Source: Starkeya sp. ORNL1 (lineage in GTDB: Bacteria; Pseudomonadota; Alphaproteobacteria; Rhizobiales; Xanthobacteraceae). Taken from it: DNA of 64,000 bases. Within the stretch, counting starts at the first letter, position 1, and every line of letters starts with the position of its first letter. Positions 53,455 through 64,000 of the stretch are shown here, one piece after another. Under the pieces are notes generated by a model. That model was given only the letters and a program-made list of their open reading frames with translations. It did no database searches and was not told where the DNA came from. The stretch spans positions 2,108,001-2,172,000 of the forward strand of contig NZ_CP048834.1 of assembly GCF_012971745.1 (NCBI RefSeq), written 5' to 3'. The translations under genes were made by a program, and so were the position numbers.

Positions 53455-53543
53455 CCCGCGTCACCGCGCGTGGCGACGGCGACGTGCCGCGGAATCGTCC
53501 CTAAAGTCATGTGCGGCGGGGGCAATCCGGGACAGGTGGGGCA

Positions 53544-54803
53544 ATGCGCGGCTTGACGGCCATTCGAGCGACCGTGGGCGTACTGCTCGCGGCCGGACTA
53601 ATCTCTACGGCCCATGCCGGCGCCTTCCTGATCCGCGACCAGAGCGCCGCCGGCTTCGGCATGGCGATCGCCGGCGTCGCGGCCGGCGACGTGCTGTCCT
53701 ACAGCTTCTGGAACCCGGCCGTGCTGGCGACGGTGCGCGACTTCGAGGCCGAGAGCGACCTCACGGCAATCTTCCCCTCCTTCGACATCCACCCGAGCGA
53801 CGCCACCAACGCCTTCCAGGACGCGGTAGGCGGCACGTCGAACTCCTCGGTCGATGTCGGGCGCTCCGCCTATGTGCCGGCGAGCTACATCGCCTATCCG
53901 CTCAATGACCGGGTGACGCTCGGCGTCGCCATCAACAGCGCCTTCGGCCTCTCCACTTTGGCGCCGGACAATTGGGCCGGCCAAGTCTATTCGCGCCAGT
54001 CCGAGATCTTCTCGCTGAACGTCACGCCGATGGCCTCCTACCGGATCAACGACATGATCTCGGTCGGCGCCGGCGTGCAGCTGGAATATTTCCGGGCGCG
54101 CCTGTCCCAGGCCATCGGCGTCGAGCCGGACGCGCCGAGCGCCTTGCTGCGGGCCACGGATGATCTCGGCGTCGGCTTCAATCTCGGCGTCCAGATCAAT
54201 CCGTGGAAGGGCATCACGCTCGGCCTCGGCTATCGCTCGTCGATCTCGCACGACGTCAACGGCTCGCTGGACGTCTCCGGCACCAGCACGCCGGCCAAGA
54301 CCACGCTCGACACGCCGGACGTGCTGAGCTTCGGCATCCGCCAGGAGATCACCGAACGCTTCCGCGTGCTCGGCACGGTGGAATGGGACCATTGGAGCAA
54401 GCTCGGCGAATTGCCCGTCACCGGGCCGGGCGGCGTGCCGCTCACCTCGCTGAAGCTCGATTATCGCGACGGCTGGCTCTATTCGGTCGGTGCCGAATAC
54501 GACTACAGCGACACGCTGACCCTGCGCGCCGGCATTGGCTACGAGGTGGCGCCGCTCACCGTCGAGAACCGCGACACCCGCCTGCCGGAGACCGACCAGT
54601 TCATCCTCTCCGCGGGCGCGACCTATAAATACAATGAGCGCATCACCCTCGACGCCTCCTATCTCTATTCGATGGGGCTCGGCGACGGCGACATCGACCT
54701 CACCGAGGGCAATCCGCGCTATCTCGGCGTGCCGTTCCAGGCGACCTCGGACCTCGGGGTGAGCATCGTGTCGGTGGCGCTCAGGATGAAGCTGGGGAAG
54801 TAG
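53544..54803 (+). CDS. OmpP1/FadL family outer-membrane transporter
   Basis: A 419-residue outer-membrane protein. ATG 53544 gives a clean signal peptide (AIRATVGVLLAAGLISTAHA). The mature start GAFLIRDQSAAGFGMAIAGVAAGDVLSYSFWNPAVLA carries the FadL hatch NPA motif. Alternating beta strands follow to the end, which closes with an aromatic-poor VSVALRMKLGK. These proteins move long-chain fatty acids or other hydrophobic compounds through the outer membrane. Length and NPA motif fit the family well. Confidence 0.9.
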   Translation: MRGLTAIRATVGVLLAAGLISTAHAGAFLIRDQSAAGFGMAIAGVAAGDVLSYSFWNPAVLATVRDFEAESDLTAIFPSFDIHPSDATNAFQDAVGGTSNSSVDVGRSAYVPASYIAYPLNDRVTLGVAINSAFGLSTLAPDNWAGQVYSRQSEIFSLNVTPMASYRINDMISVGAGVQLEYFRARLSQAIGVEPDAPSALLRATDDLGVGFNLGVQINPWKGITLGLGYRSSISHDVNGSLDVSGTSTPAKTTLDTPDVLSFGIRQEITERFRVLGTVEWDHWSKLGELPVTGPGGVPLTSLKLDYRDGWLYSVGAEYDYSDTLTLRAGIGYEVAPLTVENRDTRLPETDQFILSAGATYKYNERITLDASYLYSMGLGDGDIDLTEGNPRYLGVPFQATSDLGVSIVSVALRMKLGK

Positions 54804-55097: not shown

Positions 55098-55994
55098 ATG
55101 GACACGCGCCACCTCGAAGCCTTCCGTGCCGTCTATGAGAACGGCTCGATGAGCGCGGCGGCGGCGGTGCTGAAGAAATCGCAGCCCGCCATCAGCAACC
55201 TCATCGCCCGGCTCGAGGACGAGATCGGGCTGAAGCTGTTCCATCGCGCCCATGGCAGGCTGGAGCCGACGCCCGAGGCGGCGACCTTCTTCGCAACCAT
55301 CACCCGCACGCTCGATGCCATGGAGCAGACGCTCGCGGTCTCGCGCAACCTGAAGGGCCTGTCCTCGGCGACGCTGCTGATCGCCAGCCCGCCCGGCCTC
55401 GCCACCTATGTGCTGCCGCCGATCATCGCCGAGGTGCTCAGGGAGAATCGCGGCGCCACCGCGCGCTTCATCACCCGCTCCTCCTATGCGGTGCGCGATC
55501 TCGGCGCCATCGGCGCCTTCGATGTCGGCTTCGCGGAGCTGCCGATCGACATCCATGTCGCCTCGCTCGAACTGTTCGAGGTGAGCTGCATGTGCGTGAT
55601 GCGGCCGGACCACCCGCTGGCGAACGAGCCCCGGGTCGGCCCGCGCCAGCTGGAATCCATGCCGTTCGTCACGCTGTTCCCCGAGCACATCACCCATATC
55701 GCGGCGGCGGAGGCGTTCTTCGACGCCAATGTGCACTGGAACGTCGTCGCCGAGGTCGAGTTCTTCGGCTCGGCCTGCGTGCTGGTGCAGCAACTCGGCG
55801 CGGTGACGCTGGTCGATCCGGCGACCGCCCGCTTCTTCACCTCGACCGGGCTTAAGGCGGTGCCGTTCGAACCGATGGTGCCGTATCGCTTCGGCATGTT
55901 CCGGCCGAGCATCCGCCCGCCCTCGCGCATCGCGGTCGACTTCATGGAGCGCTTCCGGCGCTTCATGGCACCCGACCGCACGCCTTTCCGATAG
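55098..55994 (+). CDS. LysR family transcriptional regulator
   Basis: A 298-residue LTTR from ATG 55098; the longer frame from 55005 reads through an R2 repeat. The HTH is HLEAFRAVYENGSMSAAAAVLKKSQPAISNLIARLEDEIGLKLFHRAHGRLEPTPEA. The effector domain starts near residue 90 (ATLLIASPPGLATYVLPPIIAEVLR). It is the only regulator next to the catabolic operon, and a matching inverted repeat (56104-56124) lies between them, so it probably activates that operon on sensing a pathway compound. Confidence 0.92.
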   Translation: MDTRHLEAFRAVYENGSMSAAAAVLKKSQPAISNLIARLEDEIGLKLFHRAHGRLEPTPEAATFFATITRTLDAMEQTLAVSRNLKGLSSATLLIASPPGLATYVLPPIIAEVLRENRGATARFITRSSYAVRDLGAIGAFDVGFAELPIDIHVASLELFEVSCMCVMRPDHPLANEPRVGPRQLESMPFVTLFPEHITHIAAAEAFFDANVHWNVVAEVEFFGSACVLVQQLGAVTLVDPATARFFTSTGLKAVPFEPMVPYRFGMFRPSIRPPSRIAVDFMERFRRFMAPDRTPFR

Positions 55995-56103: not shown

Positions 56104-56124
56104 GCTATAACGCAAAGTTATAGC
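56104..56124. promoter_or_regulatory. LTTR box GCTATAAC-N5-GTTATAGC
   Basis: A perfect 8-bp inverted repeat with the LysR-type T-N11-A core (ATAAC-N5-GTTAT). It lies 18 nt before a TTGACC (56143-56148) that may be the -35, and 90 nt before the RidA start. The position fits an LTTR activation site. Confidence 0.7.
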
Positions 56125-56213
56125 TTGGCCTCTGAATCACATTTGACCTTGCCCTGAAAACGCATCGAAATCAGCATCTGAGATCCGGCGTCCGGCCGGG
56201 CGGGGAATGATCG

Positions 56214-56702
56214 ATGTCGGCGATGAAGCGTCTCGCGGAACTCGGGCTCCAGCTACCTGCGGCAGGTGGCGGCGAGGGCTATTACGGCAAGCTCTACGGC
56301 AAGATGAAGCCGCACTATCAGAGCGACAAACTGCTGTTCCTGTCCGGCCAGACCGCGGGCGTGAATTCTGAGGGCAAGGTGCTCTATCCCGGCCGGCTCG
56401 GGCGCGACCTCACTGTGGCCCAAGGCTATGAGGCGGCACGGCTCACCGGGCTCAACTGCCTCGGCTGCATTGTCGACGCGGTCGGCGATCTCGATCGGGT
56501 CAAGGGCCTGGTGCGCTCGCTCAACTTCATCGCCTCGGCGCCGGACTTCACCGAGCCGCACAAGGTGGCGAGCGGGCTTACCGACCTGTTCGAGCAGGTG
56601 TTCGGCGAGGAGATCGGCGTCGGCCCGCGTGCCTCCATCGGCGTAATGTCACTCGCCGACGACTATTGCTTCGAGACCTGGGTGACGGTGGAAATCCATT
56701 GA
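56214..56702 (+). CDS. RidA/YjgF family protein
   Basis: A 162-residue RidA-like protein (YjgF_endoribonc subfamily). LLFLSGQTAGVNSEGKVLYPGRLGRDLTVAQGYEAARLTGLNCLGCIVDAVGDLDRVKGLVRSLNFIASAPDF is typical; the conserved arginine of the active group is in GPRASIGVMSLADD. RidA proteins hydrolyse reactive imines/enamines, releasing ammonia. As first gene of a catabolic operon it may clear an imine intermediate. A second in-frame ATG at 56223 is possible. Confidence 0.9.
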   Translation: MSAMKRLAELGLQLPAAGGGEGYYGKLYGKMKPHYQSDKLLFLSGQTAGVNSEGKVLYPGRLGRDLTVAQGYEAARLTGLNCLGCIVDAVGDLDRVKGLVRSLNFIASAPDFTEPHKVASGLTDLFEQVFGEEIGVGPRASIGVMSLADDYCFETWVTVEIH

Positions 56703-56805
56703 TCCCTCAGCAACAACAACCTTCCGGCCCGCAAAATGCGGGAACAACAGTAACCAGACGCAGCGTGTGCGAAGAAGCGCACGGGCTTCTCCAGGGGAGA
56801 CTGAC

Positions 56806-57930
56806 ATGACGATGAAACGCATCGCCGCCGCTGCCCTCGGCATCGGCCTGGCGCTCGCACCGGCCGCCGCCTACAGCGCGGACCAGGTCACCATCGGCTT
56901 CACCGCAGCGCTGTCCGGCGATTTCGCGGCGTTCGGCCTCAACATGCGCAAGGGTCTCGACCTTGCGGTGGACGCGCTCAACAAGAAGGGCGGCGCCACC
57001 TACAAGATCGATGCGGTCGACGATCGCGGCGAAGCCCGCGAGGGCGTGCTGATCGCCCAGCGCTTCTGCTCGGACAGCAATGTCGACGTGGTGATGGGCT
57101 ATTCGTTCTCCTCCATCGCGCTCGCCGCCATCCCGGTGTTCAATGATTGCAAGCTGCCGGTGTTCGCCTCGGCGGTGACCAGCCCGGCGCTGTCCAATGT
57201 CAGCCCGTACTTCCGCCGCAATGTGCTCACCGACGCGGTGCAGGGCGCGATGATGGGCACCTATGCGGCGAAGACCCTCGGCCTCTCCAACATCTATGTG
57301 CTGAACCAGCAGGATGATTACGGCATCGGCGTCGCCAAGTCCTTCAGCGATGCCGCGACCAAGGCCGGCGCCAAGGTGCTCGGCAGTGAATCCTACCTGC
57401 TCGGCGCCAAGGATTTCCGCACCCTGCTGACCAAGGTGCGCGCCGCCCAGCCGGACGCCATCTTCATCGGCGGCTTCTACACCGAGGCCGCCAAGATCGC
57501 CGAGCAGGCCCGCGCCCTCGGCATCAAGGCGCAGTTGCTCTCGACCGATGGCGCGCTGAATGTCGAGCTGATGAAGCTCGGCCGCGGCGCGGTGGAAGGC
57601 ATGATCGTCTACGGCATGTTCGACCCCTCGGTGTCGACGCCGGCGACCGCCGCCTTCCTCACCACCTATCGCGAGAAGTACAAGGAAGACCCCAGCGCCT
57701 GGGCCGCGCTCGGCTATGATGCCGGCATCACGCTCGGCGCCGCCGTCGACCTCGCCGCCAAGGATGGCCCGGTCACCCGCGAGAGCCTGAACGCCGCCTT
57801 CGCCAAGCTAAAGGATGTGCCCGGCGTCACCGGCCCGACCACGTTCGATCCCAGTGGCGATCGCGCCGGCGCGCTCTATTTCCTCACCGTCAGCGGCGGC
57901 AAGTTTAGCCTAGCCCCTAAGCAGCCCTGA
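56806..57930 (+). CDS. Branched-chain-type ABC transporter binding protein
   Basis: A 374-residue periplasmic binding protein from ATG 56806, preceded by a GGGGAGA ribosome site. The signal peptide is MTMKRIAAAALGIGLALAPAAAYSA. The body is Peripla_BP_6 (LivK-like): VTIGFTAALSGDFAAFGLNMRKGLDLAVDALNKKGG, VVMGYSFSSIALAAIPVFNDCKLPVFASAVTSPAL, and IYVLNQQDDYGIGVAKSFSDAATKAGAKV. The ligand is not known. The operon content suggests an amidino, guanidino or quaternary-amine compound rather than leucine. Confidence 0.88.
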   Translation: MTMKRIAAAALGIGLALAPAAAYSADQVTIGFTAALSGDFAAFGLNMRKGLDLAVDALNKKGGATYKIDAVDDRGEAREGVLIAQRFCSDSNVDVVMGYSFSSIALAAIPVFNDCKLPVFASAVTSPALSNVSPYFRRNVLTDAVQGAMMGTYAAKTLGLSNIYVLNQQDDYGIGVAKSFSDAATKAGAKVLGSESYLLGAKDFRTLLTKVRAAQPDAIFIGGFYTEAAKIAEQARALGIKAQLLSTDGALNVELMKLGRGAVEGMIVYGMFDPSVSTPATAAFLTTYREKYKEDPSAWAALGYDAGITLGAAVDLAAKDGPVTRESLNAAFAKLKDVPGVTGPTTFDPSGDRAGALYFLTVSGGKFSLAPKQP

Positions 57931-58013
57931 CGTGGGACCCGAAACCCGCTGGACGCATGTCCGGCGGGTTTCGGCACGCCACCGCCTCTTTTCCGGACCT
58001 ATGATCCGACGCG

Positions 58014-60038
58014 ATGGAATATTTCGGGCAGTTGCTGGCGAACGGCCTTGTGCTCGGGGCGATCTACGCCCTGACCGCGGTCGCCTTCACGCTGGTCTAT
58101 GGCGTGGTGCGGCTGGTGAACTTCGCCTTCGGCGAATTGTTCATGATCGGCGCCTTCCTCACCACCTCGCTGATGCTCGATGAGGTGCGCCTCGTCGGTT
58201 ACACCGTGCCGATGCCGGGCCTCTCCTTCCCGCTGGCGGCGCTGGCGGCGATCCTCATCACCGCCGCGCTCGGCGTGGTGGTCGACCGCATCGCCTACCG
58301 GCCCTTGCGCAAGGCCCCGCGCCTCGCCCCGCTCATCACCTCGATCGCGGTCTCGGTGGTGCTGCAGAGCGCGGCGCAGACCATCTGGGGCGCCGAGGAA
58401 CTGCGCTTCCCGGAATTCACGCTCGCCACCTATCCGCCGGTGGTGCTGTTCGGCGCCATCTATCTCTCGGTGATGGACCTCGTGGTGATGGCGACCGCCA
58501 TCCTCGCCATGATCGGGCTCACGCTGTTCATTTCGCGCTCGACGCTCGGCCGCGCCATGCGCGCCAGCGCCGAGGACCAGACCGCGGCGATGCTGGTGGG
58601 CATACCGGTCGACCGCGTGGTCGCCGCCGCCTTCGCCATCGGCTCGGGCTTTGCCGCGCTGGCCGGCCTGCTCTATGCGCAGACCTATGGCTTCGCCCAT
58701 GCCAGCATGGGATTCCTGCCGGGCGTGAAGGCGCTTACCGCCGCGGTGCTCGGGGGCATCGGCTCGACGCCGGGCGCGGCGCTCGGCGGCGTCATTCTCG
58801 GCCTGGTCGAGGCGCTCGGCGCCGGCTACCTGCCCAATGGCTCGGCCTACAAGGACGCCATCAGCTTCGTGCTGCTGGTGCTGCTGCTCTATATCCGCCC
58901 GCAGGGCCTGCTCGGCCGGCCGGAGCTGAACTCCGCCGGACGCGGCAGCCTGCTGGGGGGCATCAGCGAGATCGGCCCGCGCTGGATCCGCGCCGGCTTC
59001 GAGCAGATGGACACGATGCTCGCCCGCACGTCGCAGGGCGGCGTGCCGCTTGCCCTCGCTCTGCTGGCCATCGCCATCGCGCTGGGCGTGTTCATCCCGT
59101 CGGACTACTGGCTGCGCATCCTCACCACGGTGCTGATCTACGGCATGCTGGCGAGCGGGCTGAACGTCATTGTCGGCTTTACCGGCCTGCTTGATCTCGG
59201 CTTCGTCGCCTTCTGGGCCGTCGGCTCCTACCTCACCTCGATCCTGTTCGTGCTGGTGTTGAAGGACACCTTCGGCATCGCCCCGCAGGAGATGTGGTGG
59301 CTGCTCTACCTCAATCTGCCGCTCGGCGGCCTGATCGCCGCTTGCCTCGCCGTGCTGCTCGGCACCCCGACCTTGAGGCTGCGCGGCGACTATCTCGCCA
59401 TCATGACGCTCGGCTTCGGCGAGATCGTGCGCATCGTCGCCATCAACTGGATCGACCTCACCCGCGGGCCGATGGGCATTCGCGGCATACCCGCGCCGAC
59501 GCTGTTCGGCTTTTCGCTCGGCACGCCGCGCATGCAGTTCTTCTTCGCGCTGGCGCTCGCCGTGGTGGTGCTGTTCGCCATCGGCCGGCTGATCCGTTCC
59601 TATGTCGGGCGCGCCTGGGTGGCGATCCGCGAGGATGAGGAAGCCGCCGAGGCGATGGGCGTGCCGACCGCGCGCTACAAGCTCTATGCCTATGCCACAA
59701 GCGGCTTTGTCGGCGGTTTCGTCGGCGTGTTCTATGCCCACTACCAGCAATATATCAGCCCGCTGAACTTCAGCCTGTTCGAGAACATCATCCTCTTGAT
59801 GCTCATCGTGCTGGGCGGCCTCGGCACCTTTGTCGGGCCGTTCGTCGGCGCGGTGATCTGGATCGTCTTCCTCCAGCTCGCCATCGATATCCCCTTCGTC
59901 CAGGCCTTCCCCGAGACGCGCTTCGCGCTGCTCGGCATCATCCTCATCGCGCTGATGCTGTTCCGCCCGCAGGGGCTGGCCGCGAGCGCGCGGGTGCAGC
60001 TCATCATGGCCGGGCTCATGCGCCGGAGGCCGGCATGA
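58014..60038 (+). CDS. Fused LivH-LivM branched-chain-type ABC permease
   Basis: A 674-residue protein joining two permeases normally separate. Residues about 1-295 are LivH-like (GLVLGAIYALTAVAFTLVYGVVRLVNFAFGELFMIGAF and AMRASAEDQTAAMLVGIPVDRVVAAAFAIGSGFAALAGLLYA). Residues about 345-660 are LivM-like (LRILTTVLIYGMLASGLNVIVGFTGLLDLGFVAFWAVGSYLTSIL and RAWVAIREDEEAAEAMGVPTARYKLYAYATSGFVGGFVGVFYA). Both coupling regions are present, so it can serve as a complete membrane unit. The next gene overlaps by 4 nt. Confidence 0.92.
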   Translation: MEYFGQLLANGLVLGAIYALTAVAFTLVYGVVRLVNFAFGELFMIGAFLTTSLMLDEVRLVGYTVPMPGLSFPLAALAAILITAALGVVVDRIAYRPLRKAPRLAPLITSIAVSVVLQSAAQTIWGAEELRFPEFTLATYPPVVLFGAIYLSVMDLVVMATAILAMIGLTLFISRSTLGRAMRASAEDQTAAMLVGIPVDRVVAAAFAIGSGFAALAGLLYAQTYGFAHASMGFLPGVKALTAAVLGGIGSTPGAALGGVILGLVEALGAGYLPNGSAYKDAISFVLLVLLLYIRPQGLLGRPELNSAGRGSLLGGISEIGPRWIRAGFEQMDTMLARTSQGGVPLALALLAIAIALGVFIPSDYWLRILTTVLIYGMLASGLNVIVGFTGLLDLGFVAFWAVGSYLTSILFVLVLKDTFGIAPQEMWWLLYLNLPLGGLIAACLAVLLGTPTLRLRGDYLAIMTLGFGEIVRIVAINWIDLTRGPMGIRGIPAPTLFGFSLGTPRMQFFFALALAVVVLFAIGRLIRSYVGRAWVAIREDEEAAEAMGVPTARYKLYAYATSGFVGGFVGVFYAHYQQYISPLNFSLFENIILLMLIVLGGLGTFVGPFVGAVIWIVFLQLAIDIPFVQAFPETRFALLGIILIALMLFRPQGLAASARVQLIMAGLMRRRPA

Positions 60039-60805
60039 GCCCGCTGCTCGCCACCAAGGGACTGACGGTGCGCTTCGGCGGGCTGGAGGCGATCGGCGGG
60101 CTCGATCTCGCGGTCCAGCGCGGCACCATCCATGGGCTGATCGGGCCGAACGGCGCCGGCAAGACCACGGTGCTGAACGTGCTCACCGGCTTCATTCGCC
60201 CCACCGCCGGCATGCTCACATTCGACGGCCACGAGATCGGCGGGCTGAGCGTCAACGCCATTGCTGCCTCGGGGCTCGCCCGCACCTTCCAGAACATCCG
60301 GCTGTTCGGCGCCATGACCGTGCTGGAGAGCGTGCTGGTCGGCGCCCATCGCCGCTTCCACGCCTCCCCGCTCGGACTGATCTTCGGCTCGGCCAAGGCC
60401 CGCGCCACCGAGGCGGCGATGATCGAGCGGGCCTATGAGTTGCTCGATTTCGTCGGTCTCGGCGGCACCGTCGCCGACCGCGTCGCCACCACCCTCTCCT
60501 ATGGCCATCAGCGCCGCGTCGAGATCGCCCGCGCCTTGATGTCGGCGCCGAAGCTGCTGCTGCTCGACGAGCCGCTCGCCGGCATGAACGCGCTGGAGAA
60601 GACCGAGATCGCCGATCTGGTGCGCGCAGTGCGCGACCAGGGCATCACCGTGCTGCTGATCGAGCACGACATGCAGATCGTGCGATCGCTGTGCGGCCAT
60701 CTCACCGTGCTCGACTATGGCAAGCGCCTCGCCGACGGCACGCCGCACGCCGTGCTGTCCGATCCCCTGGTGCAGGCCGCCTATCTCGGCCGGGAGCGGG
60801 TGTGA
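60035..60805 (+). CDS. livG: Branched-chain-type ABC transporter ATP-binding protein
   Basis: A 256-residue LivG-type ATPase. Walker A is LIGPNGAGKTTVLNVLTGFI, then LARTFQNIRLFGAMTVLESVLVGAH. The usual LSGGQ signature is replaced by LSYGHQRRVEIARAL, as is normal for LivG. Walker B LLLLDEPLAGMNALE and the switch His VLLIEHDMQIVRSL follow. It overlaps its neighbours on both sides (4 nt and 1 nt). Confidence 0.9.
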   Translation: MSPLLATKGLTVRFGGLEAIGGLDLAVQRGTIHGLIGPNGAGKTTVLNVLTGFIRPTAGMLTFDGHEIGGLSVNAIAASGLARTFQNIRLFGAMTVLESVLVGAHRRFHASPLGLIFGSAKARATEAAMIERAYELLDFVGLGGTVADRVATTLSYGHQRRVEIARALMSAPKLLLLDEPLAGMNALEKTEIADLVRAVRDQGITVLLIEHDMQIVRSLCGHLTVLDYGKRLADGTPHAVLSDPLVQAAYLGRERV

Positions 60806-61563
60806 TGGACGCCACCAACCATCACCGCTTCGACGAGGCGCGCAATGTGGCGCCGCTGATGGAGGTGAAGGGGCTCGCCGTCGCCTATGGCCGCATCCGT
60901 GCGGTCGACGGCGTGAACCTCACCATCGAGCCCGGCCGCATCGTCTCGCTCGTCGGCAGCAACGGCGCCGGCAAGACCACGACGCTGATGGCACTCTCGG
61001 GCCTCTTGCCGCTCACCTCCGGCACGGTGCGCTTTGCCGGTGAGGACATCACCCGGCTCGCCCCGGAAACCCGCGTCGCCCGCGGCATCGCCCATGTGCC
61101 GGAACGCCGCCGCGTCTTCGCCGGCATGAGCGTGCGCGAGAACCTCGTGCTCGGCGGCTATGTGCGCAACGACAAGACCGAGATCGAGCAGGACATCGAG
61201 ACGCTGACCGGCCTGTTCCCGATCCTCGGCAGGCGCATGTCGCAGGCCGCCGGCACGCTCTCCGGCGGCGAGCAGCAGATGCTCGCCATTGCCCGCGGAC
61301 TGATGTCGCGGCCTTCGCTGCTGGTCATGGACGAGCCGACCATGGGCCTCGCGCCGCAGATGATCGATCTCATCCTCGACACGGTGCAGGAGATCCGCAA
61401 GCGCGGCACCACCGTGCTGCTGGTGGAGCAGAACGCGGTCGAGGCGATCCGCCTCTCCGACCATGTCTATGTGATGCGGCTCGGCCGCATCGTCCATGAA
61501 GACTCCGGGTCGTCGATCGATCCGGAGCGCGTGAAGGCCTTCTATATGGGGAACGAGGCATGA
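60805..61563 (+). CDS. livF: Branched-chain-type ABC transporter ATP-binding protein
   Basis: A 252-residue LivF-type ATPase with Walker A LVGSNGAGKTTTLMALSGLL, AHVPERRRVFAGMSVRENLVLGGY, signature LSGGEQQMLAIARGLM, Walker B LLVMDEPTMGLAPQM and VLLVEQNAVEAIRLSDH. The N-terminus carries about 15 extra residues (MDATNHHRFDEARNV) before the usual start. It overlaps the ureohydrolase gene by 4 nt. Confidence 0.9.
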   Translation: MDATNHHRFDEARNVAPLMEVKGLAVAYGRIRAVDGVNLTIEPGRIVSLVGSNGAGKTTTLMALSGLLPLTSGTVRFAGEDITRLAPETRVARGIAHVPERRRVFAGMSVRENLVLGGYVRNDKTEIEQDIETLTGLFPILGRRMSQAAGTLSGGEQQMLAIARGLMSRPSLLVMDEPTMGLAPQMIDLILDTVQEIRKRGTTVLLVEQNAVEAIRLSDHVYVMRLGRIVHEDSGSSIDPERVKAFYMGNEA

Positions 61564-62516
61564 CGGACACTGCAAGCGCATCCACACCCCGGATGCGCCT
61601 CGGCACCTTCCTCGGCGTGCCGCAGGCGAGCGAGGCCAAGGCCGGTCAGATCGCGGTGATGGGGCTGCCGTTCGATTGCGGCACCCACGCCACCCGCATC
61701 GGCTCGCGCCAGGGGCCGGCGGCGTTCCGCGCCATGTCGAGCGAGGTGCGGCCCTATTATCCCCCGCTGGCCGATGTCGATCCCCGCGAGGGCAACCGCG
61801 TGGTCGATCTCGGCGATGTCGATGTGGTCGCCTCCGATCTCGGCCCCTCCCTCGCCGCGATGGAAGCTGCGGTGTTTGACGTGGTGCGCGCGGACGCCGT
61901 GCCGCTCTGCGTCGGCGGCGACGGCACGGTGACGCTGCCGGTGCTGCGCGCGCTCGCCAAGCGCTATCCGGAGCTGGTGCTGGTGCATATCGACGCCCAC
62001 ACCGACGCCTATCCGGGCGAGGACATCAATACCGGCACCACCTTCTCCCGCGCCGCGGCGGAAGGGCTGATCGACACGAAGCGTTCGTTCCATATCGGTG
62101 CGCGCGGCACCATGCTGGTGCCCGGCGCCTATGACTATACCCGCTCGCTCGGCTTCCGCGTCATCACCGGCGAGGAAGTGCGCAAGCGCGGCGCGGCGGA
62201 TGTCGCCGCCGAGGTGCGCGAGGTCGCCGGCAACCGCCCGGTGCACCTGTCCTTCGACATGGATTATTTCGATCCGTCGGCAGCGCCGGGCGTCGCCACC
62301 CCGACCTGGGGCGGCCCGCCGGTGGCGGAGGCGTTCGACCTGCTGCATGGGCTGAAGGGGCTCGACCTCGTCGGCGTCGACATCAACACGCTGAGCCCGC
62401 CGCACGATGTCGCCGGCATGGCCGCAATGTTGGCCGGCCATGTCGCGGTGATCGCCATGCATCTCGTCCAGCTCGGCCAGGCCGAGCATCGCCTGAACGG
62501 AGGAAACCGGTCATGA
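61560..62516 (+). CDS. Ureohydrolase (arginase/agmatinase family) with altered metal site
   Basis: A 318-residue protein of the ureohydrolase fold. Two metal motifs are intact: LVHIDAHTDAYPG (DAHTD) and HLSFDMDYFDPSAAPGVATPTWGG (SFDMDYFDP). The first motif, normally GGDH(S), reads CVGGDGTVTLP, so the first manganese-ligand His is glycine. The substrate loop region INTGTTFSRAAAEGLID is agmatinase-like. It could cleave a guanidino or amidino group to release urea, or have changed chemistry. It is embedded in the catabolic operon and overlaps its neighbours by 4 nt each. Confidence 0.85.
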   Translation: MTDTASASTPRMRLGTFLGVPQASEAKAGQIAVMGLPFDCGTHATRIGSRQGPAAFRAMSSEVRPYYPPLADVDPREGNRVVDLGDVDVVASDLGPSLAAMEAAVFDVVRADAVPLCVGGDGTVTLPVLRALAKRYPELVLVHIDAHTDAYPGEDINTGTTFSRAAAEGLIDTKRSFHIGARGTMLVPGAYDYTRSLGFRVITGEEVRKRGAADVAAEVREVAGNRPVHLSFDMDYFDPSAAPGVATPTWGGPPVAEAFDLLHGLKGLDLVGVDINTLSPPHDVAGMAAMLAGHVAVIAMHLVQLGQAEHRLNGGNRS

Positions 62517-63661
62517 GTACCGCCACCACTCTGGTTCCCGAGCCGTATGTGTGGACCGAGCCGCCGCTCGGCGACGCCAAGAGCGCACCGACGCGCTTCT
62601 ATACCGACCCCGAGGTTTTCAAGGCCGAAGTTCAGCATATCCACCTCAAGACCTGGTTCTTCGCCGGACGCCTCGAAGAGGTTCCCAACCCCGGCGACTA
62701 CAAGGCGCTGGAAAGCGTCGGCGGGCCGGTGCTGCTGGTGCGCGGCGAGGACGGCGTCCTGCGCGCCTTCGCCAATGTGTGCCGGCACCGCGCCTCGATC
62801 CTGCTGGAGGGCTGCGGGCACGCCACCAATATCATCTGCCCCTACCACGCCTGGAACTACCGGCTCGACGGCACGCTCGCCGGGGCGCCCGGCATGCGCG
62901 AGGTGCCGAAGTTCGAGAAGCCGCCGCATGGCCTGATCCCGATCCGGATGGAGGTCTGGGAAGGCGCGATCTTCCTGAACTATGACGACGACGCCCCCGA
63001 TCTCGCGACCTATCTCGGCAATTTGCCGGAACTGCTGGGCAGCCACCGCTTCGGCGAGATGGCGAAGACCTGGCACATCGAGATCGACGTCAACTGCAAT
63101 TGGAAGCTGCTGCTCGAAAACGCCATGGAGACCTACCACACCGGCGTCGTCCATGCCGCGACAGTGGGGGCGCAGCGCTCGGTGAGCTTCCCGACCTCCG
63201 GTGAATGGCTGAGCATCCAGGTGCAGTCCTCGCGCTCCATCGCCGTGCTCGGCGAGGAGCCGCCCTTCCCGCCGATCGAGGGCCTGAACGAACAGGCCCG
63301 CAAGGGCACCTATTTCACGCTTGTAGCGCCGACCACGCAGTTCGCCTGCGCGCAGGACTGCATCTGGTGGCTGGCGGTGCGCCCGGTCGCGGTCGACCGC
63401 TCGGTGCTCTCGGTCGGCGGCTGCTTCCCGAAAGCCTATACCGAGCTGCCGGACTTCGAGAGCCGCGCCGCGCCCTATTACAAGCGCTGGGAAGCGGTGG
63501 CGCTGGAGGATGTCGGCATCCTCGAGAAGCAGCAGCGCGGCCTCTCCTCGAAGCTGGCACGCCCTGGCCCACTCTCCTGGCGCGACGACATGGTGCTCGC
63601 CATGAACCGCTGGGTGATGGCCCGGCTTCCTGCCCATATCGTCGATGGAATGGTCGAGTGA
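62513..63661 (+). CDS. Rieske non-heme iron oxygenase, alpha subunit
   Basis: A 382-residue oxygenase. The Rieske cluster ligands are CRH (NVCRHRASILLEGCG) and CPYH (IICPYHAWNY), near residues 86-110. The mononuclear iron site is ENAMETYHTGVVH, with a late Asp in the C-terminal domain. It fits the GbcA/StcA/CntA-like group acting on N-methylated or betaine-type compounds by oxidative demethylation. No reductase or ferredoxin gene lies within the window. It overlaps the next gene by 1 nt. Confidence 0.9.
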   Translation: MSTATTLVPEPYVWTEPPLGDAKSAPTRFYTDPEVFKAEVQHIHLKTWFFAGRLEEVPNPGDYKALESVGGPVLLVRGEDGVLRAFANVCRHRASILLEGCGHATNIICPYHAWNYRLDGTLAGAPGMREVPKFEKPPHGLIPIRMEVWEGAIFLNYDDDAPDLATYLGNLPELLGSHRFGEMAKTWHIEIDVNCNWKLLLENAMETYHTGVVHAATVGAQRSVSFPTSGEWLSIQVQSSRSIAVLGEEPPFPPIEGLNEQARKGTYFTLVAPTTQFACAQDCIWWLAVRPVAVDRSVLSVGGCFPKAYTELPDFESRAAPYYKRWEAVALEDVGILEKQQRGLSSKLARPGPLSWRDDMVLAMNRWVMARLPAHIVDGMVE

Positions 63662-64000
63662 TGCGCGTCCTGCTGACCCATAATTGCGATCTGCTGAAGC
63701 ACTTCTACGGCAACAAGGCGGTGGAACAGCTGAAAGCCCTGCCGATCGAGCTGATCATGAACGACAGCGACGAGCCGCTGCGGGGCGATGCGCTGGTGAA
63801 GGCCGCCGAGGGTTGCGAGGTGGTGATCTCCGACCGCCTTGCCGCCGGGCCGCGCGAAGTGATGAGCCGCTTGAAGGACGTGAAGACCTTCATCCGGTGC
63901 GCCGTCGATATCCGCAACATCGATGTCGATGCCGCCTCCGACGCCAATATCCTGATCTGCCGCTGCAGCTCGGGCTATGCGGATTCGGTCGGCGAGCACG
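63661..64000 (+). CDS. D-isomer-specific 2-hydroxyacid dehydrogenase, N-terminal part
   Basis: The first 113 codons are visible and the gene runs off the right edge. MRVLLTHNCDLLKHFYGNKAVEQLKALPIELIMNDSDEPLRGDALVKAAEGCEVVISDR is the usual N-terminal substrate domain. FIRCAVDIRNIDVDAASDANILICRCSSGYADSVGEH then approaches the NAD-binding part. It probably reduces or oxidises a 2-hydroxy/2-keto acid from the operon pathway. The NAD-binding motif lies outside the window, so activity cannot be checked. Confidence 0.8.
   Translation, partial: MRVLLTHNCDLLKHFYGNKAVEQLKALPIELIMNDSDEPLRGDALVKAAEGCEVVISDRLAAGPREVMSRLKDVKTFIRCAVDIRNIDVDAASDANILICRCSSGYADSVGEH

Follow-up and report, generated by a model that had tools for sequence, protein, structure and literature searches.

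A conserved LysR-adjoining operon of Starkeya sp. ORNL1 that may serve the uptake and catabolism of an N-substituted amino-acid-like compound

The window analysed here is a 64-kb stretch of the single-contig, 6.29-Mb genome of Starkeya sp. ORNL1 (positions 2108001-2172000 of contig C1). Near its right end a LysR-type regulator gene is followed by genes for a RidA-family protein, an amino-acid-type importer, an arginase-fold enzyme, a Rieske oxygenase and a D-2-hydroxyacid dehydrogenase, and this operon is real and conserved in distant genomes. Based on residue patterns and gene neighbourhoods, we tentatively propose, with somewhat less than even confidence, that under LysR control it serves to import and break down an amino-acid-like, N-substituted compound, probably other than a plain guanidino acid. 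The literature searched held no description of the gene order or of such a pathway, in agreement with an earlier model-made annotation of the same DNA (the original prediction), which had found no matching known pathway.

The LysR gene (55098-55994, plus strand; PF03466/PF00126) lies upstream of the operon on the same strand. The genes that follow, all on the plus strand, encode a RidA/YjgF-family protein, a candidate imine/enamine deaminase (56214-56702; PF14588, 49.8 bits), a LIV-type periplasmic binding protein (56806-57930; PF13458, 200.7 bits), a fused LivH-LivM-type permease of 674 aa in a single open reading frame (ORF; 58014-60038), a LivG-type ATPase (60035-60805), a LivF-type ATPase (60805-61563), an arginase-fold enzyme with GGDG instead of GGDH (61560-62516; PF00491, 226.4 bits), a Rieske non-heme iron oxygenase alpha subunit (62513-63661; PF00355/PF00848) and the dehydrogenase, of which the first 113 codons lie inside the window (63661-64000) before its end cuts the gene. 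The permease and ATPase labels come from the ORF read-out and from tblastn comparisons among the loci. The intergenic gaps from LysR to the dehydrogenase are 219, 103, 83, -4, -1, -4, -4 and -1 nt; five of the seven junctions among the eight genes from RidA to the dehydrogenase thus overlap by 1 or 4 nt, and the ORFs and families bear out the predicted run of eight mostly overlapping genes beside a LysR gene.

To extend the operon to the right, 20 kb around the window end were read (locus L002, in which a position equals the window position minus 53999). The complete dehydrogenase has 329 aa (63661-64650 in window-equivalent numbering, plus strand; PF02826, 160.3 bits on full length), and the expected 2-hydroxyacid dehydrogenase is by family of the D-2-hydroxyacid type. 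It is followed by a gene for a PF04909 amidohydrolase or lactonase-like enzyme (64647-65528, overlapping the dehydrogenase gene by 4 nt), one for an N-terminal nucleophile (Ntn) hydrolase resembling gamma-glutamyltransferase (GGT; 65525-67129, overlapping the PF04909 gene by 4 nt) and, 206 nt further on, one for a thiamine diphosphate (ThDP) decarboxylase (approximately 67336-68982), all in window-equivalent numbering. The extension, which had been proposed as a place to look for a reductase and further enzymes, thus supplied the enzymes, but no reductase gene was recognised from ORFs and Pfam among the operon genes, the added ones included. None of the operon enzymes reached an NCBIfam cut-off among the best 25 families per search.

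The same gene order had also been suggested as something to seek in other genomes, where it was found. Genomes of named species were scanned with a Rieske alignment and the best 80 loci of a longer match set were kept, part of the fetching having used a pattern holding E[TS]YHT; gene order was compared by tblastn and with a codon-score gene caller. With UH standing for the arginase-fold enzyme, HADH for the dehydrogenase, AMH for the PF04909 enzyme and SBP for the binding protein, the order LysR-RidA-SBP-LivHM-LivG-LivF-UH-Rieske-HADH-AMH occurs in ten Ancylobacter-type loci (L003-L010, L012 and the window), whose records are named Ancylobacter or Xanthobacteraceae bacterium. A metagenome-assembled genome (MAG) of Rhodospirillaceae (L011) has the identical LysR-to-AMH order with the binding-protein gene split into two reading frames (L011:4262-5387), which is either a real break or an assembly error. 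Acetobacter garciniae (L057) keeps the operon order but has no RidA, and its binding protein is fused to the LivHM permease in one 1093-aa frame (L057:4239-7520; PF13458, then two PF02653 stretches), and a Rhodobacteraceae MAG (L039) keeps the core genes in a changed order. Rearranged versions were found in Caballeronia (L015, L016 and plasmid L083) and Hydrogenophaga (L018, L019). The Caballeronia loci L083 and L015 carry a class III aminotransferase gene between the RidA gene and the arginase-fold gene (L083:8772-10145, L015:14315-15688; 711 bits for the L015 copy against the PRK06105 cut-off of 517).

Within the window's genus, the arginase-fold gene was present at an identity of at least 85% in 16 of 29 other sampled genomes, some of which may overlap the named ones. 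Matches at E 1e-95 or better among 398 sampled genomes of the phylum were confined to the window's own genome and one congener, and the block is therefore patchy in the phylum. The Rieske protein of one Hydrogenophaga genome matched only itself at E 1e-90 in 300 genomes of its order, so that this version is rare there.

D-2-hydroxyacid-dehydrogenase-like genes filled 28 of the 167 slots directly beside a Rieske gene, compared with 3 of 1051 at distances 2-12. These counts cover 79 of the 80 Rieske loci (L048 was dropped because its Rieske gene was missed by the gene caller) and use a dehydrogenase profile trained on 42 genes of the searched loci, which found 44 among 2203 genes and may miss distant dehydrogenases. 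A directly adjoining dehydrogenase was seen in 28 of the 79 loci; 15 of these 28 lie outside the 16-locus operon group (15/63), and the dehydrogenases come from two groups that share only 25-35% identity with each other. In a second look at loci fetched with other queries, 11 of 810 genes were such dehydrogenases, and all but one of these belonged to operon copies or UH/AMH modules. This pairing suggests that the Rieske enzyme makes a 2-oxo acid, or that both enzymes act on a common 2-hydroxy/2-oxo-acid skeleton, and it offers a directly testable reaction for the large Rieske group. The fetched Hydrogenophaga locus, in which no dehydrogenase-lactonase pair was found, has a gene for an aldehyde dehydrogenase of the succinate-semialdehyde dehydrogenase type after the Rieske gene (477 bits, below the 646 cut-off), which would fit a carbonyl product.

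Outside the operon, the pairing recurs in two further settings, the labels of which mostly derive from one Pfam-scanned copy and sequence clustering. DUF1989, Rieske, dehydrogenase and polar amino-acid ATP-binding cassette (ABC) transporter genes cluster in L058, L066, L068, L069 and L074 (Pfam on L058), and three of them (L058, L069 and L074) also have a called M20 peptidase-family gene; all five loci hold two Rieske genes together with DUF1989 genes and would represent a further unassigned pathway. A trimethylamine-methyltransferase-family (MTTB) gene, a Rieske gene and a dehydrogenase gene stand in a row in L059, L060, L071, L080 and L081 (Pfam on L059).

Turning to the Rieske protein itself, its closest PDB sequence is carnitine monooxygenase CntA (6y9c, residues 22-218), and 4qup, which we take to be a stachydrine demethylase, appears lower down. 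The Rieske ligands, the histidines that we assign to the iron site and the bridging Glu206, which aligns with the Glu of CntA/YeaW, are all kept, and the bridging Glu of Group V enzymes, here in an E-x-[YF]-H-T motif, is present in 120 of 120 listed homologs. In contrast, the Cys-x-x-Cys pair of some Group V members was absent in all 120, and likewise in each of the 52 loci proteins with an identity of at least 50%, a sample biased by the E[TS]YHT pattern used in part of the fetching. According to an excerpt of the CntA study, Cys206 and Cys209 lie by the iron, are crucial for activity and are unique to some Group V enzymes (PMC10952381); the operon enzymes have Thr, Ser or Ala and Thr at these positions. 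The enzyme may still be the predicted Rieske demethylase: the bridging Glu is there, a carnitine-monooxygenase-type Cys pair is not. The enzymes share with CntA/YeaW the Rieske domain and this Glu, whereas the operon has no reductase gene and its downstream genes differ, and the NCBIfam score for glycine betaine monooxygenase was 153.5 against a cut-off of 670.

A YeaX query gave no match in the window's own genome at E 1e-15, which shows little. Elsewhere in this genome, a locus (L205; C1:4230000-4247000) holds two adjacent Rieske genes, a small ferredoxin and a ferredoxin-reductase-type protein (C1:4236015-4239983), together with an ABC transporter with TOBE and SBP_bac_8 parts and what is presumably a LysR-like gene. 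The ferredoxin and the reductase-type protein of this locus could serve the operon Rieske enzyme in trans.

The arginase-fold enzyme resembles guanidine hydrolases in overall fold. By sequence it is closest in the PDB to guanidinobutyrase, guanidinopropionase, agmatinase and proclavaminate amidinohydrolase, and the predicted structure (mean pLDDT 86) matches guanidinopropionase with a template modelling score (TM) of 0.85. The top Foldseek matches in the PDB had TM 0.78-0.86 and 31-39% identity, and the best 50 rows contained solely the known arginase family, hence structure prediction did not discriminate within it. The NCBIfam agmatinase score of 137.1 fell below the cut-off of 174.3. In E. 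coli agmatinase (SpeB), an excerpted description gives His126, Asp149, Asp153 and Asp230 as Mn-A ligands, Asp149, His151, Asp230 and Asp232 as Mn-B ligands, and His126, Asp153, His163, Asp230, Asp232 and Glu274 as guanidine contacts (PMC8125230). We compared these positions in 178 aligned rows, comprising loci proteins, 120 listed homologs, the window protein and one annotated agmatinase, duplicates included. Two groups of 171 and 7 rows emerged from the residue pattern and were not chosen beforehand.

In the larger group, which we call the GGDG subfamily, the Mn-A ligand His126 is replaced by Gly in 170 of 170 scorable rows (one fragment was unscorable), His163 by T, P, A, S, V or N in 171 of 171, and Glu274 by Thr in 171 of 171, while Asp149, His151, Asp153, Asp230 and Asp232 are kept in all 171. 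The seven other rows, among them L084_14, added by hand as the annotated agmatinase, show the canonical H-D-H-D-H-D-D-E pattern. The residue losses agree with a direct SpeB alignment in 17 of 17 close relatives, and the His126 equivalent is His in the five PDB alignments printed and Gly in the window protein. Moreover, the subfamily has a signature of its own, namely His178 in 166 of 171 rows and Trp250, Asn276 and Thr277 in 171 of 171, with different residues in the seven others. Thus, the GGDG enzymes share the fold, the Mn-B ligands and Asp153 with agmatinase, guanidinobutyrase and guanidinopropionase, but have neither the full agmatinase-type set of six metal ligands nor the guanidine contacts His163 and Glu274. 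The arginase-family part of the predicted guanidino/amidino hydrolase is therefore sound, whereas three guanidine-contacting residues are lost in the enzyme and throughout its subfamily.

This pattern sets the enzyme in a separate arginase-fold group for which guanidine chemistry is unlikely. The loss of the Mn-A His does not by itself preclude such chemistry, since agmatinase without Mn-A retains about half its activity according to the excerpt cited above (PMC8125230). Where source names are given, the subfamily proteins are called agmatinase or arginase family; with the guanidine-gripping residues absent in the 171 compared rows, the agmatinase name is probably wrong for these members.

The GGDG subfamily matched at 1e-75 in 22 of 385 Alphaproteobacteria, the window's own genome included, and its gene neighbourhoods vary. 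One locus (L127) carries UH, AMH and HADH with an epimerase-family gene, GntR and a DctPQM transporter by Pfam, and another (L157) carries UH, HADH, an epimerase-family gene and a DctPQM transporter by clustering. A polar amino-acid ABC transporter accompanies the GGDG gene in L130, L143, L147, L148, L152, L156 and plasmid L085 (labels from the L085 annotation and Pfam on L148), with an M20 peptidase-family gene in all of these except L152. In L135, L136, L138 and L139, the GGDG gene lies near an ADI/DDAH-family gene (Pfam on the L135 copy only) and an ABC transporter read as spermidine/putrescine type; in L135 a DUF1028 gene stands in between. The remaining fetched subfamily loci had no clear neighbourhood theme.

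The importer is built on LivHM-type permeases of 662-687 aa in the operon loci, or 1093 aa with the binding protein in L057. We take Ser79, Thr102 and Glu226 of LivK (mature numbering) to be ligand-binding positions. In the operon binding proteins, all 21 scorable rows keep the equivalents of Ser79 and Thr102 and have Asp at the position of Glu226, which therefore stays acidic; the Tyr202 equivalent is Phe. Such a largely kept pocket points to an amino-acid-like ligand, that is, one with an amino-acid head group. To that extent the original prediction of an imported N-rich compound is supported. All 20 aligned RidA rows, the window's among them, have the Arg of the R-x-[SAT]-IGV motif.

Among the downstream enzymes, the PF04909 protein best matches PDB entries 4mup, presumably a galactarolactone isomerase, and 4dia/4d8l, of the 2-pyrone-4,6-dicarboxylate lactonase type. 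It shares the HxH motif with these enzymes; the operon members differ from other PF04909 enzymes in being paired with the dehydrogenase and in having Asn in 'TNWPHP', where the distant homologs in L184, L186 and L187 have Asp. The GGT-like protein has the equivalent of the catalytic Thr391 in 17 of 17 rows and the oxyanion glycines Gly483 and Gly484 in 17 and 15 of 17. In contrast to this common catalytic centre, the gamma-glutamyl pocket is altered: Arg114, Asn411, Gln430, Asp433 and Ser462-Ser463 are all substituted in the window protein, with Ser at 114 and 433 and His-Thr at 462-463, and the NCBIfam gamma-glutamyltransferase score was 335.1 against 357.85 bits. As described in an excerpt, PtGGT and GtGGT, both from extremophiles, likewise carry Ser at 114, and one Ser of their 462/463 pair is replaced by His, and the R109S variant of BlGGT keeps 85% of its activity (PMC8062742), so that gamma-glutamyl activity of the operon protein may still be possible. 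The ThDP decarboxylase shares the three-domain architecture of AruI and indolepyruvate decarboxylase but scores below both NCBIfam cut-offs: the 5-guanidino-2-oxopentanoate decarboxylase family gave 105.2 bits against 500, the indolepyruvate decarboxylase family 465.4 against 946. A simple 2-ketoarginine route was rejected because of this score, far below the cut-off, and because the gene occurs only in the window genome and L003 among the compared loci.

Taken together, these patterns allow us to infer a sequence of reactions. The LIV-type ABC importer would take up a solute with an amino-acid head, as its pocket residues imply. The Rieske enzyme, working with a reductase encoded elsewhere, may hydroxylate the carbon beside the nitrogen and so break the C-N bond, which would yield a carbonyl compound, either a 2-oxo acid or a semialdehyde. 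The D-2-hydroxyacid dehydrogenase, in keeping with its pairing, would interconvert the 2-oxo and 2-hydroxy acids, and the PF04909 enzyme may open or isomerise a lactone form. In the window genome and a close relative that also encodes it, the ThDP decarboxylase might take CO2 from the 2-oxo acid. The GGDG arginase-fold and GGT-like Ntn enzymes are candidates for the hydrolysis of amide- or ureido-type C-N bonds, and RidA would clear imines.

Several observations weigh against this scheme. The loci with the Rieske-dehydrogenase pairing share ancestry, so they do not count as separate events, and the genes used to train the dehydrogenase profile came from the very loci that were scored. Furthermore, in 51 of the 79 Rieske loci no such dehydrogenase lies at most two genes away, and these 51 include many relatives of 53-61% identity, such as the Tabrizicola group. 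The Rieske enzyme could N-demethylate or hydroxylate its substrate and not cleave at the alpha carbon, and the residual activity of agmatinase without Mn-A leaves room for guanidine chemistry. The Caballeronia and Hydrogenophaga versions have no close arginase-fold ortholog inside the block, and not every operon copy has the GGT and ThDP genes: GGT occurs in some copies and ThDP, besides the window genome, only in L003 among the best 80 loci. A broader reading, which we consider doubtful, joins two ideas: the GGDG subfamily would be a new single-metal hydrolase class for neutral amide or ureido bonds, and the Rieske-dehydrogenase pair a recurrent catabolic module that oxidatively strips an amino acid of its substituted alpha-amino group, leaving a 2-oxo acid, with the operon as one full version of it. 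One solved substrate would help annotate clusters in several groups of Proteobacteria.

Guanidino-acid catabolism, the idea favoured by the original prediction, would have the arginase-fold enzyme free urea from a guanidino acid and the Rieske enzyme remove an N-alkyl group. The sequence and fold matches to guanidinobutyrase, guanidinopropionase, proclavaminate amidinohydrolase and agmatinase speak for it, as do the GGDG enzymes near ADI/DDAH-family genes in four loci and the Rieske relatives that lie with DUF1989 genes, a family that includes carboxyguanidine deiminase according to an excerpt (PMC11271267). However, it is weakened by the replacement of the SpeB His163 and Glu274 in every subfamily row and of His126 in every scorable one, and by an agmatinase score below cut-off; we have thus moved it down to an alternative that we deem unlikely. 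N-demethylation of a betaine, of the glycine-betaine, carnitine or stachydrine type, draws on the closeness of CntA and the demethylase 4qup, on the kept bridging Glu and on the distant relatives that adjoin a trimethylamine-methyltransferase-family gene in five loci. The CntA-crucial Cys pair is nevertheless absent in all listed homologs, the glycine betaine monooxygenase score is far below cut-off and no operon gene was identified by Pfam or NCBIfam as a dimethylglycine, sarcosine or formaldehyde enzyme, which makes this explanation quite unlikely.

We judge equally improbable a hydroxy-acid or sugar-acid lactone pathway with the dehydrogenase-lactonase pair as its main agent and the nitrogen enzymes as accessories. 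Such a role would explain why the PF04909 enzyme is closest to 4mup and the 2-pyrone-4,6-dicarboxylate lactonases, why its homologs (46-48%) in L181, L182 and L185 sit in clusters with an epimerase-family gene and tripartite ATP-independent periplasmic (TRAP) transporter genes, and why a dehydrogenase gene adjoins a PF04909 gene, with no Rieske gene, in L172, L174, L175, L176 and L127, TRAP-type genes being present in all but L174. It accords poorly with a LIV-type importer with amino-acid pocket residues and with the constant presence of the Rieske and arginase-fold genes inside the block, seen in all Ancylobacter-type loci as well as in L011, L039 and L057. Finally, the genes might be adjacent yet belong to separate pathways, with the importer serving ordinary amino acids and the enzymes other things. 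In Caballeronia the arginase-fold gene is indeed separated from the Rieske block and accompanied by a polar amino-acid transporter of its own, and the fetched Hydrogenophaga locus (L018, L019) has no arginase-fold gene; one Hydrogenophaga genome had no copy at 1e-40 and the other has two elsewhere, at 40-42% identity. Against the overlapping start-stop junctions and an order kept in distant genomes, we find this explanation very unlikely.

LysR control of the operon is plausible. The LysR gene adjoins RidA in the Ancylobacter-type loci and L011, and the fused binding-protein-permease gene in L057. A LysR-type transcriptional regulator (LTTR) inverted repeat, GCTATAAC-N5-GTTATAGC, with perfect 8-bp arms lies in the LysR-RidA gap (56104-56124, no strand assigned), as had been predicted. 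Arms as long as 8 bp arose in 46 of 2000 mononucleotide shuffles of this 219-bp gap, and the box taken alone is therefore only modestly above chance; we rejected its perfection as a stand-alone argument for its strength. A looser ATAA-N6..8-TTAT motif occurs in the gap between the regulator and the first gene in 13 of 14 non-duplicate loci, a raw count mostly of close relatives obtained after three same-genome repeats were dropped (L002 = window, L154 = L007, L155 = L006); it was not found in the gap of Acetobacter L057.

No Rfam match at gathering scores was obtained in L002. Directly after the ThDP gene, beyond the window and on the minus strand, lie two mandelate-racemase-family genes, one labelled by Pfam and the other by sub-threshold NCBIfam matches, beside genes that we take from their translations to be TctA/TctB-like; these minus-strand genes (together L002:15176-19706) probably form a separate sugar-acid operon. 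On the other side, directly upstream of the LysR gene, the window encodes what is presumably an outer-membrane FadL/OmpP1-like protein (53511-54803), and a 411-aa gene before LysR in L003 was taken as its counterpart.

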